Source: Microcaldota archaeon
GTDB lineage: Archaea > Micrarchaeota > Micrarchaeia > Micrarchaeales > Micrarchaeaceae
Reading direction: 5' to 3'
DNA length: 64,000 nt
Assembly: GCA_028866905.1 (NCBI GenBank)
Contig: JAGWHI010000001.1
Location: 1-64,000, forward strand
Positions 52,957-59,250 of the stretch are shown here, one piece after another (the first letter of the stretch is position 1; the number at the start of each line of letters is the position of its first letter). The translations under genes and the position numbers were made by a program. Below the pieces are notes generated by a model. The model searched no databases. It worked only from the letters and a program-made list of their open reading frames with translations, and was not told the DNA's origin.

Positions 52957-52987
52957 AGCGGGATAAGTACTATCGGGTGAGACTGTG

Positions 52988-53344
52988 ATGGTGAGCACAA
53001 GGAAGGCGACTTTGGCGGATGTCGCTATTGCAGGGAAGACAGCGCCGAAGCTTACTACGGATATAGCCGGAATCTTCGCATGGGACAACCGGCCCAGGAG
53101 CGTGTTTGAGATAGCTAGGGCGCTGAAGACAAAGGACCTGGACGCGATAATGAACGTAATATCCAGACTGGAGCACGAATATGGGATACTCGAGAAAATG
53201 CCGAACGATGAGAGCCACGTAAGAAAGCTCAGGAATGGTGTCGTGAGGATATCCCCAAGGTATCGCATCGTGGAGGACCACATAGGCGATATGAGAGATG
53301 TGGTCGCTTTGAGGAGCGGGAGCTACTTCGAAACTACATACTAG
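52988..53344 (+). CDS. small winged-helix-like protein
   Basis: This 118-residue protein has a central segment FEIARALKTKDLDAIMNVISRLEHEYGILEK that looks like a winged helix (helix-turn-helix plus wing RNGVVRISPRYRIV). It is probably a DNA-binding or adapter protein. ATG 52988 is preferred over GTG 52985. It is followed after 13 bp by the gene at 53358. Confidence 0.65.
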   Translation: MVSTRKATLADVAIAGKTAPKLTTDIAGIFAWDNRPRSVFEIARALKTKDLDAIMNVISRLEHEYGILEKMPNDESHVRKLRNGVVRISPRYRIVEDHIGDMRDVVALRSGSYFETTY

Positions 53345-53357
53345 CGGTGGGCGCCTG

Positions 53358-53705
53358 GTGAAGAGAATCCCTGCGATAGACATCGACACAAGGAAACTGT
53401 CGCAGGAGGACGAGCTGAACAGGGCGGTCTACGTCCTGCTTAGGGGAAAACTAAACCCGGAGAAGAGTTTCCTGCTGCATGCCGCGCTCGCATTCAAGTA
53501 CATGGACGACCGTGGAACCCTCAACGACGTGCCGCAGCGGCTGTTCGGGATAGTCGGAGAGAAGGTATTCAATGGCTCAGGCGACAGGAAGCTTAAATCG
53601 CTTCATCTGACGGCAAAGTTCGGAGGGCTTTCGGAGATAGAATTCGCAGCTTACAGGAGGCAGGTTCTGGACGCGATTGCGGCGAATGCCCTTTCCGAAA
53701 AATAG
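53358..53705 (+). CDS. hypothetical small helical protein
   Basis: This unrecognised 115-residue soluble protein starts with GTG and is rich in Leu, Lys and Ala (for example KSLHLTAKFGGLSEIEFAAYRRQVLDAI). It is probably cotranscribed with the winged-helix gene 13 bp upstream and lies just before the suf operon. No function can be assigned. Confidence 0.6.
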   Translation: MKRIPAIDIDTRKLSQEDELNRAVYVLLRGKLNPEKSFLLHAALAFKYMDDRGTLNDVPQRLFGIVGEKVFNGSGDRKLKSLHLTAKFGGLSEIEFAAYRRQVLDAIAANALSEK

Positions 53706-53743: not shown

Positions 53744-53752
53744 TTTAAATAC
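53744..53752 (+). promoter_or_regulatory. TATA box for suf operon
   Basis: tttaaatac, preceded by aagg, places transcription start near 53774, inside the palindrome at 53772-53790. Confidence 0.6.
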
Positions 53753-53771: not shown

Positions 53772-53790
53772 ATTATAACTGAGTTATAAT
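53772..53790 (+). promoter_or_regulatory. perfect 8+8 palindrome at suf transcription start
   Basis: ATTATAACTGAGTTATAAT is an inverted repeat of eight bases on each side of a three-base centre. It overlaps the predicted start site of sufB. Such placement would block polymerase, which fits an operator. Confidence 0.6.
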
Positions 53791-53802: not shown

Positions 53803-55224
53803 ATGGCAGAACAGGCAGCCGAAACCATGGAATTCGCGAACGAGGAGGAGTACCGTCAGAGGTACGGCTTCAGCGACAAGATAGAATACAAGTTCAAGAC
53901 CAGGAGAGGCATCGACGAGGATGTGGTCAGGGAGATATCGAGGGTAAAGGGGGAGCCGGATTGGATGCTCGAGAAGAGGCTCACGGCTTACAGGATATTC
54001 AAGTCCAAGCCGACACCCACGTGGGGAGCCGACCTGAGCGGAATAAACTACGACAACATATTCTATTATCAGAGAGCTACGGACACGAAGGCGGAGAACT
54101 GGGAGAACGTTCCGAAGGAGATAAAGGAGACCTTCGACAAGCTCGGGATTCCAGAAGCCGAGCAAAAGTTCTTTGCAGGGGCTGAGGCGCAATACGATTC
54201 AGAGGTAGTCTACCACCACGTTCACGAGGCGCTCGCGAAGCAGGGAGTTATATTCACAGACACCGACACTGCAGTAAAGAAGTATCCGGAGATCATGAAG
54301 AAATACTTTGGAACTGTTATTCCTTCGACCGACAACAAGTACGCCGCGCTCAACACCGCAGTCTGGAGCGGGGGATCCTTCATATACGTCCCGAAGGGGG
54401 TTAAGGTTACGATGCCGCTGCAGGCGTACTTCAGGATAAACTCCCAGGATGCTGGCCAATTCGAGAGGACGCTCATAATCGCAGACGAGGGTGCGGACAT
54501 CACCTACATAGAGGGGTGCACCGCCCCGATTTACGTTAGCTCTTCCCTGCACTCCGCAGTGGTGGAGCTTGTGGCGCACAAGGACGCACACATAAGGTAC
54601 GTGACTATACAGAACTGGTCGAAGAACGTATACAACCTTGTTACCCAGCGTGCGTTCGCCTATGAAAACGCGCATGTCGAATGGATCGACGGCAATATAG
54701 GCAGCAAGGTCAATATGAAGTATCCGTCAGTATACCTCAAGGAGCGTGGGGCACGTGGAGAGATATTATCGATTGCTGTTGCTGGCATGCATCAGACCCA
54801 GGATTCCGGGGGTAAGATATACCACCTGGCCCCCGACACCACGTCCAAGATAATCTCGAAGAGCGTATCGACGGGTGATGGGGTGGCATCGTACAGGGGG
54901 CTCCTGTACGTATCGAAGGACGCCGGCAACGTGAAGAGCACAGTACGCTGCGACGCGCTGCTTCTCGACGAGAAAGCGAAGACGAACACTTATCCGTACA
55001 TGCAGATATACAGGGACGATGCGAACATAACCCACGAGGCCACAGTCGGCAAGGTCGGCGAGGAGCAGCTCTTCTACCTGATGTCGAGGGGCCTGAGCGA
55101 GGAGGACGCGATAACCGCGATAGTACTCGGCTTCATAGACCCGCTCGCCAAGGCGTTGCCCATGGAGTACTCGCTGGAGCTCAAGAGGCTTGTGAAGCTC
55201 GACATGTCAAAGTCTGTAGGATGA
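53803..55224 (+). CDS. sufB: Fe-S cluster assembly protein SufB
   Basis: This scaffold subunit of the SufBCD complex is about 473 residues from ATG 53803 (GTG 53794 adds three). Hallmarks are FGTVIPSTDNKYAALNTAVWSGGSFIYVPKGV, the beta-helix core, GCTAPIY, and the late QDSGGKIYHLAPDTTSKIISKS. The end PLAKALPMEYSLELKRLVKLDM matches the family. It is translationally coupled to sufD by ATGA. The cluster is probably controlled through the palindrome at 53772-53790. Confidence 0.96.
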   Translation: MAEQAAETMEFANEEEYRQRYGFSDKIEYKFKTRRGIDEDVVREISRVKGEPDWMLEKRLTAYRIFKSKPTPTWGADLSGINYDNIFYYQRATDTKAENWENVPKEIKETFDKLGIPEAEQKFFAGAEAQYDSEVVYHHVHEALAKQGVIFTDTDTAVKKYPEIMKKYFGTVIPSTDNKYAALNTAVWSGGSFIYVPKGVKVTMPLQAYFRINSQDAGQFERTLIIADEGADITYIEGCTAPIYVSSSLHSAVVELVAHKDAHIRYVTIQNWSKNVYNLVTQRAFAYENAHVEWIDGNIGSKVNMKYPSVYLKERGARGEILSIAVAGMHQTQDSGGKIYHLAPDTTSKIISKSVSTGDGVASYRGLLYVSKDAGNVKSTVRCDALLLDEKAKTNTYPYMQIYRDDANITHEATVGKVGEEQLFYLMSRGLSEEDAITAIVLGFIDPLAKALPMEYSLELKRLVKLDMSKSVG

Positions 55225-56513
55225 CTCATGGTGAATTTCTGGACGGTTATAGGCTATTCGTAGAGGACGCGCTAAAGCGGTACAATGAGCTGCCCGACGA
55301 GAAGGACGAGCTCTATAAGAGGTATTTCGTGAAGGTTCCGCTGGGCGAGGACTCTGCGGTTAAGGACACCGTTGATGCGGGGGAGCGGATATCCAAGTCC
55401 ATAGCGGACGCAACCGGGATCGTATTCGATGCGGTAGTGGGAGCCAGTGGCGCATCCGCCAAAAAAAGCTCTATTCGTGTGCTTCAGCCGCAGGAACTGG
55501 GAAACGATGTCCTTGAGAGCAAGATTGTGCACAGCGGCGACGACAAGATCGCTGCGCTTATACACGCCCACTCAAAGAAGGTTGTGCTTATAGACGTTCC
55601 CGACGGGGCAGACGAGACCATGAACATCCTGTTCTTCGCTGTCGACGAGCAGCTGCCGGTGCAGGTCATAATAAAGGCGGGGGAGAACTCGAAGCTTACG
55701 CTGCTCGAGTGGTACGCCTCCGAGGGGGTTGCCCAAAAGTACATCGGGCCGCTGCATGAAGTGTCTGCCGGGAGGTACTCGAACGTGGAGATAGACATAA
55801 TACACAACGAGAACGAGAGCACGAGCGTGGCGGGCTTCTCCAAGTGCAGGTCTGACGAGGGCGCCACGATCAGATTCAACCAGGTCTTCAATGGCGCACC
55901 TTTCACAAAGGCTAAGAGCGACCTTGAGGCTTACGGATACTCGAGCAGCGTTCATGGAACTGAGATTGCGATAGGTTCCAAGGAGCAGAAGTTTGACATC
56001 GGCTCCCACATAACGAACTCCGCGAAGGCGAGCGTGGCGGAGCTCGAGTCCAAAGCGGTCCTCACCGGCAAGTCGTACTGCCTGTTCAAGGGGCTCGCCA
56101 AGATAAGGAGCGGGGCGAAGGAATCGAAGTCGTTCCTGAAGGAATCCGGGCTCCTTGTGGATCCGCAGGCACACATAGACTCGATACCATCGATGTCGGT
56201 CGACGACAGCGACGTGAAGGCGACCCATTCGTCAGCAACGGCGCCTATAGACGAGGAGGCGCTGTTCTATATGATGACAAAGGGCCTGGACATCGGCCAC
56301 GCTAAAAAGCTTGTTGTCGAGAGCTACATGTCAAAGGCGATCGACAGGATAAAGAACCCTGCAGTAAGGGAGGTAGTCACCCATATGCTGATCGAGAAAC
56401 TTGAGACCGGCTCTTTCGGGACCGTGCCAAAGCCCAGGCAGACCGACATCTGGATGACAAGGAACATCGATGAGGGGGACCTCTTCGAGGGCCACTACAA
56501 ATACAGGAGCTGA
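55221..56513 (+). CDS. sufD: Fe-S cluster assembly protein SufD
   Basis: This SufB-related partner has 430 residues. The beta-helix core is present, and the end DIGHAKKLVVESYMSKAIDRIKN resembles SufD. It lacks the strict SufB motifs, which fits the non-scaffold subunit. It overlaps sufB by 4 bp and is followed 1 bp later by an HTH gene. Confidence 0.94.
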   Translation: MTHGEFLDGYRLFVEDALKRYNELPDEKDELYKRYFVKVPLGEDSAVKDTVDAGERISKSIADATGIVFDAVVGASGASAKKSSIRVLQPQELGNDVLESKIVHSGDDKIAALIHAHSKKVVLIDVPDGADETMNILFFAVDEQLPVQVIIKAGENSKLTLLEWYASEGVAQKYIGPLHEVSAGRYSNVEIDIIHNENESTSVAGFSKCRSDEGATIRFNQVFNGAPFTKAKSDLEAYGYSSSVHGTEIAIGSKEQKFDIGSHITNSAKASVAELESKAVLTGKSYCLFKGLAKIRSGAKESKSFLKESGLLVDPQAHIDSIPSMSVDDSDVKATHSSATAPIDEEALFYMMTKGLDIGHAKKLVVESYMSKAIDRIKNPAVREVVTHMLIEKLETGSFGTVPKPRQTDIWMTRNIDEGDLFEGHYKYRS

Positions 56514-56514
56514 C

Positions 56515-56835
56515 ATGCCGACCAATTATGAGAGAGTGCTGAAGGAATTCCTGCCCGCCTTCAAGGCTGGCGCAGCAAAGGCTATGGTCAGGGAGTACAA
56601 GCTATCGCAGCAGGAATCCGCGTCGATATTGGGGATAACCCAGGCTGCGATAAGCAAGTACCTCAACAACAGCTACTCCGCTAAGATTAAGAGGATAGAA
56701 TCTGGCCTGGACAAGCGGATGATAAGGAGGTTCGTCGAGGAAAGGATGAACGGCAGCAGGAGGGGGGCGCAACGGATCGCCTGTGACATGTGCCAGCTGT
56801 ACCACGAGTTCGACTGCTCGTTGAGGGTGAAATGA
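56515..56835 (+). CDS. HTH regulator with three-cysteine tail inside the suf operon
   Basis: This 106-residue protein is a helix-turn-helix factor. The segment YKLSQQESASILGITQAAISKYL is the HTH (about residues 28-50), like archaeal COG2522 regulators. Its carboxy end contains Cys90, Cys93 and Cys101 (CDMC and later FDCS) plus His97, which could bind an Fe-S cluster or zinc. Location between sufD and sufC suggests a dedicated regulator of Fe-S assembly. The operator-like palindrome upstream of sufB is a likely target. The role is inferred. Confidence 0.8.
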   Translation: MPTNYERVLKEFLPAFKAGAAKAMVREYKLSQQESASILGITQAAISKYLNNSYSAKIKRIESGLDKRMIRRFVEERMNGSRRGAQRIACDMCQLYHEFDCSLRVK

Positions 56836-56851: not shown

Positions 56852-57586
56852 ATGAGACTTGAGATAAAGGACCTGCATATCTCCGTTGATAGCAAGGAGG
56901 TAGTGAAAGGTGTGAGCCTAACCATAAACGAGGGCGAGGTGCACGTGATAATGGGCCCGAACGGGTCAGGCAAGACGACGCTCGTCAAAGGAGTCATGGG
57001 ATACCCCAAGCTCAAGGTTACGGCGGGCGACATAATGGTCGACGGCGAGAGCATAAGAGAGCTCTCGACTGACAAGAGGGCCAAGCTGGGCCTGTTCCTC
57101 CAGTTCCAGAATCCGGTCGAGGTGGAGGGCGTTGGTTTCGTCAACTTCCTGCACAACGCGAAGGAAGCTGCGTCCGGAGGCGGTATTAACACCAAGGAGT
57201 TCGTAAAGGAGGTGAAGGAGAATGCGGCCCGGCTCAAGATGGGGGAGGGCTTCATGAGCAGGTCGCTTAACCAGGGATTCTCCGGCGGGGAGAAGAAGAA
57301 GGCCGAGATACTCCAGATGTCCATGCTCAAGCCGAAGATCGCCATACTGGACGAGCCCGACTCTGGGCTCGACATAGACGCGGTCAAGATCGTTGCCGAG
57401 AACATAAACGAGATAGCGGAACGGACAAGGATGGGTGTGCTCGTGATAACGCACTACAGCAGGATACTGGACTATATGAAGCCTGATTTCGTGCACGTGA
57501 TGGTGAACGGAAGGATAGTGGCAGAAGGGGACAAGTCAATGATAGCAAAACTTGAGAAGGAAGGATATGACTCTTTCACAAAATAG
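56852..57586 (+). CDS. sufC: Fe-S assembly ATPase SufC
   Basis: This ABC-type ATPase energises SufBD. It has 244 residues with Walker A GPNGSGKTT, signature FSGGEKKKAEI, Walker B AILDEPDSGLDIDA and the switch His in ITHYSR. The SGGEKKKAE signature is diagnostic for SufC. The stop codon lies inside sufS (20-bp overlap). Confidence 0.96.
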   Translation: MRLEIKDLHISVDSKEVVKGVSLTINEGEVHVIMGPNGSGKTTLVKGVMGYPKLKVTAGDIMVDGESIRELSTDKRAKLGLFLQFQNPVEVEGVGFVNFLHNAKEAASGGGINTKEFVKEVKENAARLKMGEGFMSRSLNQGFSGGEKKKAEILQMSMLKPKIAILDEPDSGLDIDAVKIVAENINEIAERTRMGVLVITHYSRILDYMKPDFVHVMVNGRIVAEGDKSMIAKLEKEGYDSFTK

Positions 57587-58847
57587 CGAGTACTTCGCAG
57601 GCGAAAGCCTGAACGTAGACAGGATCCGCAGGGACTTCCCGGAGCTGAGCGTGAAGGTAAACGGGAATAGGCTTGTCTACCTGGACAGCGCAGCAACGTC
57701 TCAGAAACCGATGCAGGTGATACGCGCGGTGGACGAGTTCTATTCCAGGTACAATGCCAACATCCACAGAGGTGTTTACAAGATCGCAGAGGAGGCGACG
57801 GCAGCGTACACCGAATCGAAGGAGAAGGTGGCTCGCCTGATAAACGCGAATGGGATAGAGGAGATAGTTTACGTCAGGAACGCGACCGAGGCGATAAACC
57901 TTGTCGCGCTGGGATGGGCCGCGCACAACATCTCCAAGGGAGACCACATACTGATATCAGAGATGGAGCACCACAGCAACATCGTCCCATGGATAATACT
58001 CTCCAACAGGGCGGGAGCCGTGCTCGATTATGTAGAGATAGACAAGAGCACAGGGCTTCTCGACGACAACAGCCTCCATGAAAACCTTGAAAAATCGCCG
58101 AAGCTGGTCGCGATAACCCAGGCCTCCAACGTGCTTGGCACGATAAACGACGTAAAGCAGATAGCAAAGCTTGCTCACAAAAGGGGGGCGAAGGTGCTCG
58201 TAGACGCTGCGCAGTCAGTGCCGCACATGAAAGTTGACGTGAGGGATATCGATTCCGATTTCTTCGCCTTCTCGGGCCACAAGATGCTCGCGCCGACTGG
58301 AATCGGTGTGCTCCACGCAAAAGCTGAGATACTCGACAGGATGGAGCCCGTGTTCGGAGGAGGGGACATGATAAAGTCCGTTGAATACCACTCTTATACG
58401 CCGAACGACCTGCCTTGGAAGTTCGAGGCCGGTACAGCGAACATAGAGGGAGGAATAGGGCTTGGCGCCGCAGTAGACTACCTCAACATGCTTGGCATGG
58501 ATAGGATAAGGAGGCACGAGATGGAGATAACAAAGTACGCGCTTGAAAGGCTGCAGGATGTATCCAATGTCACGGTATACGGGCCGTCGCTGGATATGCT
58601 CGAGTCGCGGGTCGGCGTGGTGTCCTTCTCGCTCGACGATGTGCACCCCCATGATGTAGCGACGATATTCGACAGGGACGGCGTTGCAATAAGGGCAGGG
58701 CACCACTGCGCTATGCCGCTGGTGACGAAGGTGATAGGAAAGCCAGCGCTTTCCAGGATGAGCTTCTATATGTACAACGGCAACGACGATGTTGATGCCG
58801 CGGTCAAGGCCATAGGAGAGGTTAAGAAGATATTCAGGATAAAGTGA
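57567..58847 (+). CDS. sufS: cysteine desulfurase SufS (class V PLP enzyme)
   Basis: This enzyme mobilises sulfur from cysteine for Fe-S assembly. It has 426 residues. The PLP lysine is in FSGHKMLAP and the persulfide cysteine in RAGHHCAMP. The YLDSAATSQKP start and the EMEHHSNIVPW and FEAGTANIEGG motifs are typical of SufS/CsdA. I chose ATG 57567 because ggaagg precedes it; it overlaps sufC by 20 bp. Confidence 0.95.
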   Translation: MTLSQNSEYFAGESLNVDRIRRDFPELSVKVNGNRLVYLDSAATSQKPMQVIRAVDEFYSRYNANIHRGVYKIAEEATAAYTESKEKVARLINANGIEEIVYVRNATEAINLVALGWAAHNISKGDHILISEMEHHSNIVPWIILSNRAGAVLDYVEIDKSTGLLDDNSLHENLEKSPKLVAITQASNVLGTINDVKQIAKLAHKRGAKVLVDAAQSVPHMKVDVRDIDSDFFAFSGHKMLAPTGIGVLHAKAEILDRMEPVFGGGDMIKSVEYHSYTPNDLPWKFEAGTANIEGGIGLGAAVDYLNMLGMDRIRRHEMEITKYALERLQDVSNVTVYGPSLDMLESRVGVVSFSLDDVHPHDVATIFDRDGVAIRAGHHCAMPLVTKVIGKPALSRMSFYMYNGNDDVDAAVKAIGEVKKIFRIK

Positions 58848-58851
58848 GGAT

Positions 58852-59250
58852 ATGGACCTTTACGCTGAAGAGATAATATCTCATTACGAGCATCCGCACA
58901 ACAAGGGCAAGCTCGATGCGGAGAACGCGACATTCCACGAGCATAACCCGCTCTGCGGTGACGAGATAACGATCCACCTCCACATAGACAACGGGAGGGT
59001 CGACAGGATAAGCTTCGAGGGCAACGGTTGCGCCATAAGCATGGGCACGGCCAGCATGCTTACCGATTTCATAAAGGGGAAAACCCTGGAAGAAGTGGAG
59101 AAGATGGGCGTCAGCACCGTCATAGACCTTCTCGGGATAGACCCGGGGCCCGGCAGGCTAAAGTGCGCTACGCTGTCGCTCAAGACCCTCAAGGAGGCGA
59201 TATTCGTCTACGAGCACAAGTCGGTGGACAGCGGCACCAGGAACCTCTAG
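58852..59250 (+). CDS. sufU: Fe-S scaffold SufU/IscU-like
   Basis: This 132-residue IscU-fold protein has the three cluster cysteines in NPLCGD, GNGCAIS and RLKCATL. Absence of the IscU LPPVK motif and the presence of extra residues between the second and third cysteines point to SufU-type. SufU accepts sulfur from SufS and is often zinc-binding. It ends the operon and overlaps the convergent alaX by 4 bp. Confidence 0.93.
   Translation: MDLYAEEIISHYEHPHNKGKLDAENATFHEHNPLCGDEITIHLHIDNGRVDRISFEGNGCAISMGTASMLTDFIKGKTLEEVEKMGVSTVIDLLGIDPGPGRLKCATLSLKTLKEAIFVYEHKSVDSGTRNL

Follow-up and report, generated by a model that had tools for sequence, protein, structure and literature searches.

How do archaea control the assembly of Fe-S clusters? 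This control is largely unknown, and the question is raised here by the suf operon of a Micrarchaeota genome (886 kb), which carries an inverted repeat at its promoter and a gene for a helix-turn-helix (HTH) protein in its interior. The operon lies in the window, by which we mean the whole 64-kb stretch of DNA that was analyzed, and its gene order is sufB-sufD-HTH-sufC-sufS-sufU; the HTH open reading frame (ORF) begins 1 nt past the sufD stop and ends 16 nt ahead of the sufC start. Judged by SufB, the close relatives in the genome collection are Micrarchaeota records throughout, save one labeled Marsarchaeota. The features of the locus are these:

53744..53751, + strand: TATA box TTTAAATA of the suf promoter (sequence)
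53772..53790, strand not applicable: putative operator, a perfect palindrome (ATTATAACT-G-AGTTATAAT) with the conserved core TTATAACYNRGTTATAA (sequence and relatives)
53803..55224, + strand: sufB (NCBIfam TIGR01980, E 4e-211)
55221..56513, + strand: sufD (TIGR01981, E 5e-47, under the curated cut-off; Pfam SUFBD_core, E 9e-43)
56515..56835, + strand: Cys-tailed Cro/XRE-type HTH regulator of 106 aa, the proposed suf/iron repressor (Pfam HTH_3; relatives)
56641..56664, + strand: predicted recognition helix, residues 43 to 50 (QAAISKYL), of which Q43 and K48 do not vary among 53 relatives
56782..56817, + strand: Cys90-xx-Cys93-x7-Cys101 tail, the proposed cluster ligands (conservation in 53 proteins)
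56852..57586, + strand: sufC (TIGR01978, E 1e-94)
57570..58847, + strand: sufS (TIGR01979, E 3e-165)
58852..59250, + strand: sufU (TIGR01994, E 8e-33)

Two small ORFs (52985-53344 and 53358-53705) directly precede the suf promoter; because they have no clear family in Pfam and no match in the suf loci fetched from relatives, they are left out of the model developed below. In many relatives, SufB contains an in-frame, intein-like insertion of ~1 kb that gives an open frame of about 840 to 900 aa (seen at L040, L041, L043 and L044, and in G003, G006, G010, G015, G027, G038, G051 to G053, G055 and others). The sufB gene of the window has no such insertion.

The sequence ATTATAACTGAGTTATAAT, at 53772-53790, is a perfect inverted repeat in which the arms ATTATAACT and AGTTATAAT flank a central G (9+1+9). 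The preliminary description of this DNA had called it a perfect 8+8 inverted repeat; the palindrome is indeed perfect, but its arms are 9+9 around one base. A scan of the 64 kb (45% AT) for inverted repeats with arms of ≥9 and loops of ≤6 found no other, and 100 dinucleotide shuffles gave no match to it at ≤3 mismatches. The palindrome lies downstream of the TATA box at 53744-53751, with 12 nt between its end and the sufB ATG at 53803, and these positions uphold the earlier claim that it overlaps the expected transcription start of sufB. An operator in that position fits a repressor.

To ask how far the palindrome and the HTH gene occur together, we turn to the relatives of this organism. An HTH homologue was detected in 56 of 60 relatives and is found at the suf locus in nearly all of the 60, either between sufD and sufC (family f1) or immediately 5′ of sufB (family f2). 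We scored the regions upstream of the first gene of the suf operon (59 loci) against the 17-bp consensus TTATAACYNRGTTATAA. The palindrome, which the preliminary description had proposed to seek in relatives, was present at ≤3 mismatches in the suf promoters of all 54 loci scored as HTH-bearing and in none of the five promoters of the four HTH-less genomes (G007, twice, G014, G015 and G021), where the best sites had 5 to 8 mismatches, the same as in shuffled sequence. With the HTH gene in place (53 loci), mismatches numbered 0 in 22, 1 in 19, 2 in 11 and 3 in 1; at the 54th locus (G035), the operator is at suf and the HTH gene is on another contig. Fisher's test of the association gives 2e-6 by genome, a value to be read in the light of the fact that relatives are not independent, and the four HTH-less genomes represent four genera. 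The sampled genomes, which lie within the phylum, are mostly metagenome assemblies, and for that reason a missing gene could be a gap; in the four HTH-less genomes, the suf loci are assembled and the operator is absent too. G007 has a second, divergent SufB (49% identity; L053, G007:C1:240106-241473), without HTH gene and operator.

When the 54 sites were aligned, positions −7 to −2 and +2 to +7 proved nearly invariant, and the flanks were free. Where the TATA box is clear (42 promoters of relatives), the operator center lies a median of 26 nt downstream of the TATA center and therefore sits on the transcription start, a position that supports repression. Archaeal repressors usually sit at the start site downstream of TATA, and activators usually sit upstream of BRE/TATA. 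We accordingly consider it improbable that the HTH protein activates suf, since its putative operator lies at the start site and 3′ of the TATA box.

The HTH protein matches HTH_3 (PF01381, the Cro/C1-type XRE family) over residues 26 to 61, marginally, at 23.7 bits against a gathering cut-off of 23, and P14, Q43 and K48 are invariant across the 53 aligned HTH proteins. The three cysteines and one histidine that the preliminary description had placed in the tail of the product of 56515-56835 are there (Cys90, Cys93, Cys101 and His97), and the fates of the two residue types differ among relatives. C90 and C93 occur in 53/53 aligned proteins and C101 occurs in 52/53, with the CxxC-x7-C spacing kept in 51/53, in line with the earlier expectation that a CxxC...C tail would be conserved. 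Neither of the two outcomes that the preliminary description had set as fatal to its sensor model, HTH-bearing relatives without a conserved palindrome and unconserved cysteines, was thus observed. His97 was rejected as a ligand because it is kept in only 3/53 proteins, and a role for the tail histidine is therefore not supported. In an AlphaFold model built from ten sequences (mean pLDDT, 90), the recognition helix spans residues 43 to 50 and the last helix spans residues 82 to 97, bearing C90 and C93. A fold search with this model returned generic HTH matches only, none at E <0.001, and the top PDB profile matches, to the zinc regulator AdcR and its kin, are confined to the helix-turn-helix region. 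A second, weaker-matching HTH homologue is present in most genomes of the order; in the genome of the window, this paralogue (G000:C21:18013-18279; L002, L105) has no cysteines, is 30% identical to the suf HTH protein and adjoins a PEP-synthase-like gene.

The operator also occurs away from suf. The exact motif TATAACYNRGTTATA is present in 0 to 3 copies per genome (44 of the 60 relatives have 1 to 3 each), at suf in most genomes, and its reversed-pattern control has no match in the 61 genomes. We took forward 22 non-suf sites from the exact-motif scan and, for comparison, a 1-mismatch site on C9 and two 3-mismatch sites (C1 and C4) in the genome of the window. The 1-mismatch site lies at a contig end with no gene visible, and the two 3-mismatch sites were judged to be chance. 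Ten of the 22 non-suf sites precede one family of ZIP-like membrane proteins of 250 to 283 aa, but because the family was defined from site-bearing genes, these ten are not independent evidence. Two of its members match Pfam Zip, under the cut-off (E 6e-8 and 9e-7), and a search with the family found 23 genes in 22 genomes. Among 13 ZIP loci outside the family definition, four (L237, L238, L240 and L245) have a site of ≤3 mismatches 10 to 29 nt upstream, one (L235) ends at a contig edge, and no site was found at L232, L233, L234, L239, L242, L246 and L248. In the genome of the window, an operator at G000:C24:15408-15424 (L142) is followed 28 nt on by the start of a ZIP-like gene, whose product matched nothing in Pfam and is called ZIP-like on alignment alone. 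A divergent gene for an FAD-linked oxidase (485 aa) lies 43 nt from the same operator and might share its control. Further non-suf sites precede genes for a radical-SAM protein, methyltransferases, an HxlR regulator and a 123-aa protein. The 123-aa protein is conserved in two genomes of one genus (L143 and L146) and has no Pfam match.

We extended the comparison to an outer set: the other families of the class contributed homologues from 33 genomes, and 30 loci were examined. These 30 loci, which come from the best-scoring genomes, are the basis on which helix and operator classes were assigned. In most of these loci, the homologue heads an HTH-sufCB or an HTH-iscS-iscU (cysteine desulfurase-IscU) operon. 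The CxxC..C tail is kept by nearly all of them (the exceptions are L220, without the first Cys, and L208, with the third displaced), and 28 of the 30 homologues also have an N-terminal Cys, versus 1 of 53 in the window's order. The sequence of the recognition helix goes with that of the operator. Helices of the form TQ..SK (or SQ..SK) pair with TATAAC-N3-GTTATA, which was found at ≤2 mismatches in 13 of 17 loci; the remaining four are L210, which is truncated, and L206, L207 and L209, where the 160 nt that were read contain no site. In G081, the genome of L206, the motif lies 5′ of the ThiI gene that precedes the HTH gene, and in G086, the genome of L207, a site lies ~650 nt upstream. Helices of the form T(P/E)..SQ pair instead with TTAAC-N4-GTTAA, the operator then being TTAACNATNGTTAA; its strict form, TTAACRATYGTTAA, occurs once each in 5 of the 33 genomes, always directly 5′ of the HTH gene, and none of these five genomes has the TATAAC-N3-GTTATA motif. 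In family f6, with the helix TQPAISQ, TATAACGTYGTTA-type sites were found in two of three loci.

Could the palindrome be bound by some other factor, such as the Cys-less paralogue (G000:C21:18013), or be a chance occurrence or part of the promoter? In its HTH the paralogue is similar, at the identity given above, yet several observations make this reading very improbable. Relatives with one homologue only, the suf copy (G011, G013, G028 and G036), keep the operator, and so it is not the paralogue that preserves it; in outer families with a single homologue, the operator adjoins that gene; and helix and operator covary. The pairing of palindrome and HTH gene put forward in the preliminary description is thus supported by conservation, co-loss, a shared regulon and helix-operator covariation, all of which point to the palindrome as the operator of the HTH protein encoded within the operon.

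Outer TATAAC-N3-GTTATA sites precede further genes: FTR1 iron permease (L273 directly and L276, less certain, at 227 nt), cysteine desulfurase and Thi4 (L269 and L270), Fe/Mn superoxide dismutase (SOD; L271) and CTP-dependent riboflavin kinase (L272). Together, the sites at suf, iscS, ZIP-like, FTR1 and SOD genes make up a predicted regulon of Fe-S assembly and iron supply. The operator, the conserved cysteines, the predicted protein-operator pairing and the predicted regulon content all emerge from comparison of genomes, and the pairing and the iron/Fe-S regulon are strongly supported by it.

From these results, we consider it probable that the 106-aa protein is a repressor of Fe-S assembly and iron supply whose cluster-bound form blocks the suf start. 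We infer that its Cro/XRE-type HTH binds TTATAACYNRGTTATAA over the suf transcription start as a dimer, and the same protein would bind over the start of the ZIP-like importer gene in the window's genome. The CxxC-x7-C tail most likely carries a labile Fe-S cluster, and the cluster-bound protein would occlude the start site and so block RNA polymerase; under a shortage of clusters, the apo form would let go, such that suf, the importer and the regulator itself are induced. A single operator in front of both Fe-S assembly genes and iron importers, together with an all-Cys HTH protein encoded in the operon, fits a labile-cluster repressor. Several points speak against this reading: three Cys could instead ligate Zn or make a disulfide, one protein (L059) lacks the third Cys, a few operator sites stand before methyltransferase genes or genes with no obvious tie to iron, and at some of the ZIP loci listed above there is no site.

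The main rival keeps the operator and the regulator but has the cysteines bind a metal ion, Fe2+ or Zn2+, as the signal in place of a cluster, in the manner of DtxR- or MarR-type metal sensors. We regard this as possible but rather unlikely. The ZIP-like and FTR1 metal importers in the regulon would suit it, as would the profile matches to AdcR, although those extend over the helix-turn-helix region only; the all-Cys ligation without a conserved His and the steady location in suf/isc operons favor a cluster, and FTR1, cysteine desulfurase and SOD fit iron, not zinc. A less likely variant has the cysteines act as a structural zinc knuckle or as a thiol redox switch, both of which are roles of CxxC motifs in other regulators, and has the protein report oxidative stress rather than cluster status. 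One related site does precede SOD, but such a role would not by itself account for the regulon's iron importers and cysteine desulfurases.

The labile-cluster repressor proposed here recalls known regulators. In cyanobacteria and actinobacteria, SufR (e.g., Rv1460) is a repressor with a Cys-rich C-terminal part, encoded in or beside the suf operon, for which [4Fe-4S] sensing and autoregulation have been proposed (PMC6034842). The HTH protein resembles SufR in the location of its gene in the suf operon and in its Cys-bearing C-terminal tail; it differs in its operator sequence and in the metal importer genes of its predicted regulon, and no SufR model matched it among the NCBIfam models at E 0.1. 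SufR is also of another HTH class and longer than 106 aa. IscR is an Rrf2 winged-helix protein with three Cys and a His as cluster ligands. Like IscR/Rrf2, the HTH protein is small, has three Cys and is predicted to control isc/suf and iron genes; unlike IscR, it has a His that is not conserved, and no Rrf2 domain was found in it with Pfam or NCBIfam at E 0.1. The combination of iron importers and a palindromic operator is shared with DtxR/IdeR and Fur-type repressors; DtxR_N (PF01325, Fe_dep_repress N-terminal) has no match in the HTH protein, nor was a DtxR domain found in the genome of the window at E 0.001. By these profile tests and by IscR's unmatched His, the protein would work like SufR and IscR yet appears to belong to neither, nor did any other described regulator family match it. 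A short XRE-type HTH with a Cys-rich tail is also the make-up of COG2522, the archaeal "predicted transcriptional regulator" to whose type the preliminary description had assigned the proposed sensor; the name did not appear in the open literature searched. Searches of that literature for archaeal Fe-S regulators turned up none, its papers on the archaeal SUF, SMS and ISC systems name no such regulator, and an earlier description in the subscription literature, outside that search, is possible.

Beyond what the preliminary description had envisaged, metal importers belong to the predicted regulon and the system extends across the phylum. The comparison yields a defined protein, an operator specified exactly over 17 bp, a predicted regulon with iron importers among its members and a natural series of helix-operator changes. 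Synthetic genes would allow all of these to be tested directly, even though none of the organisms has been cultured. We lean slightly toward the view that this undescribed family is a phylum-wide Fe-S/iron switch, which was kept through iscSU, sufCB and sufBDCSU changes and coevolved with its operator. If so, the family would fill the role played elsewhere by SufR, IscR, Fur and DtxR. The regulator would have stayed with the Fe-S assembly genes while their arrangements changed from one to another of these three, its operator would have changed jointly with the recognition helix, and the window's order would have been left with three cluster ligands, without the N-terminal Cys of most of its outer relatives.
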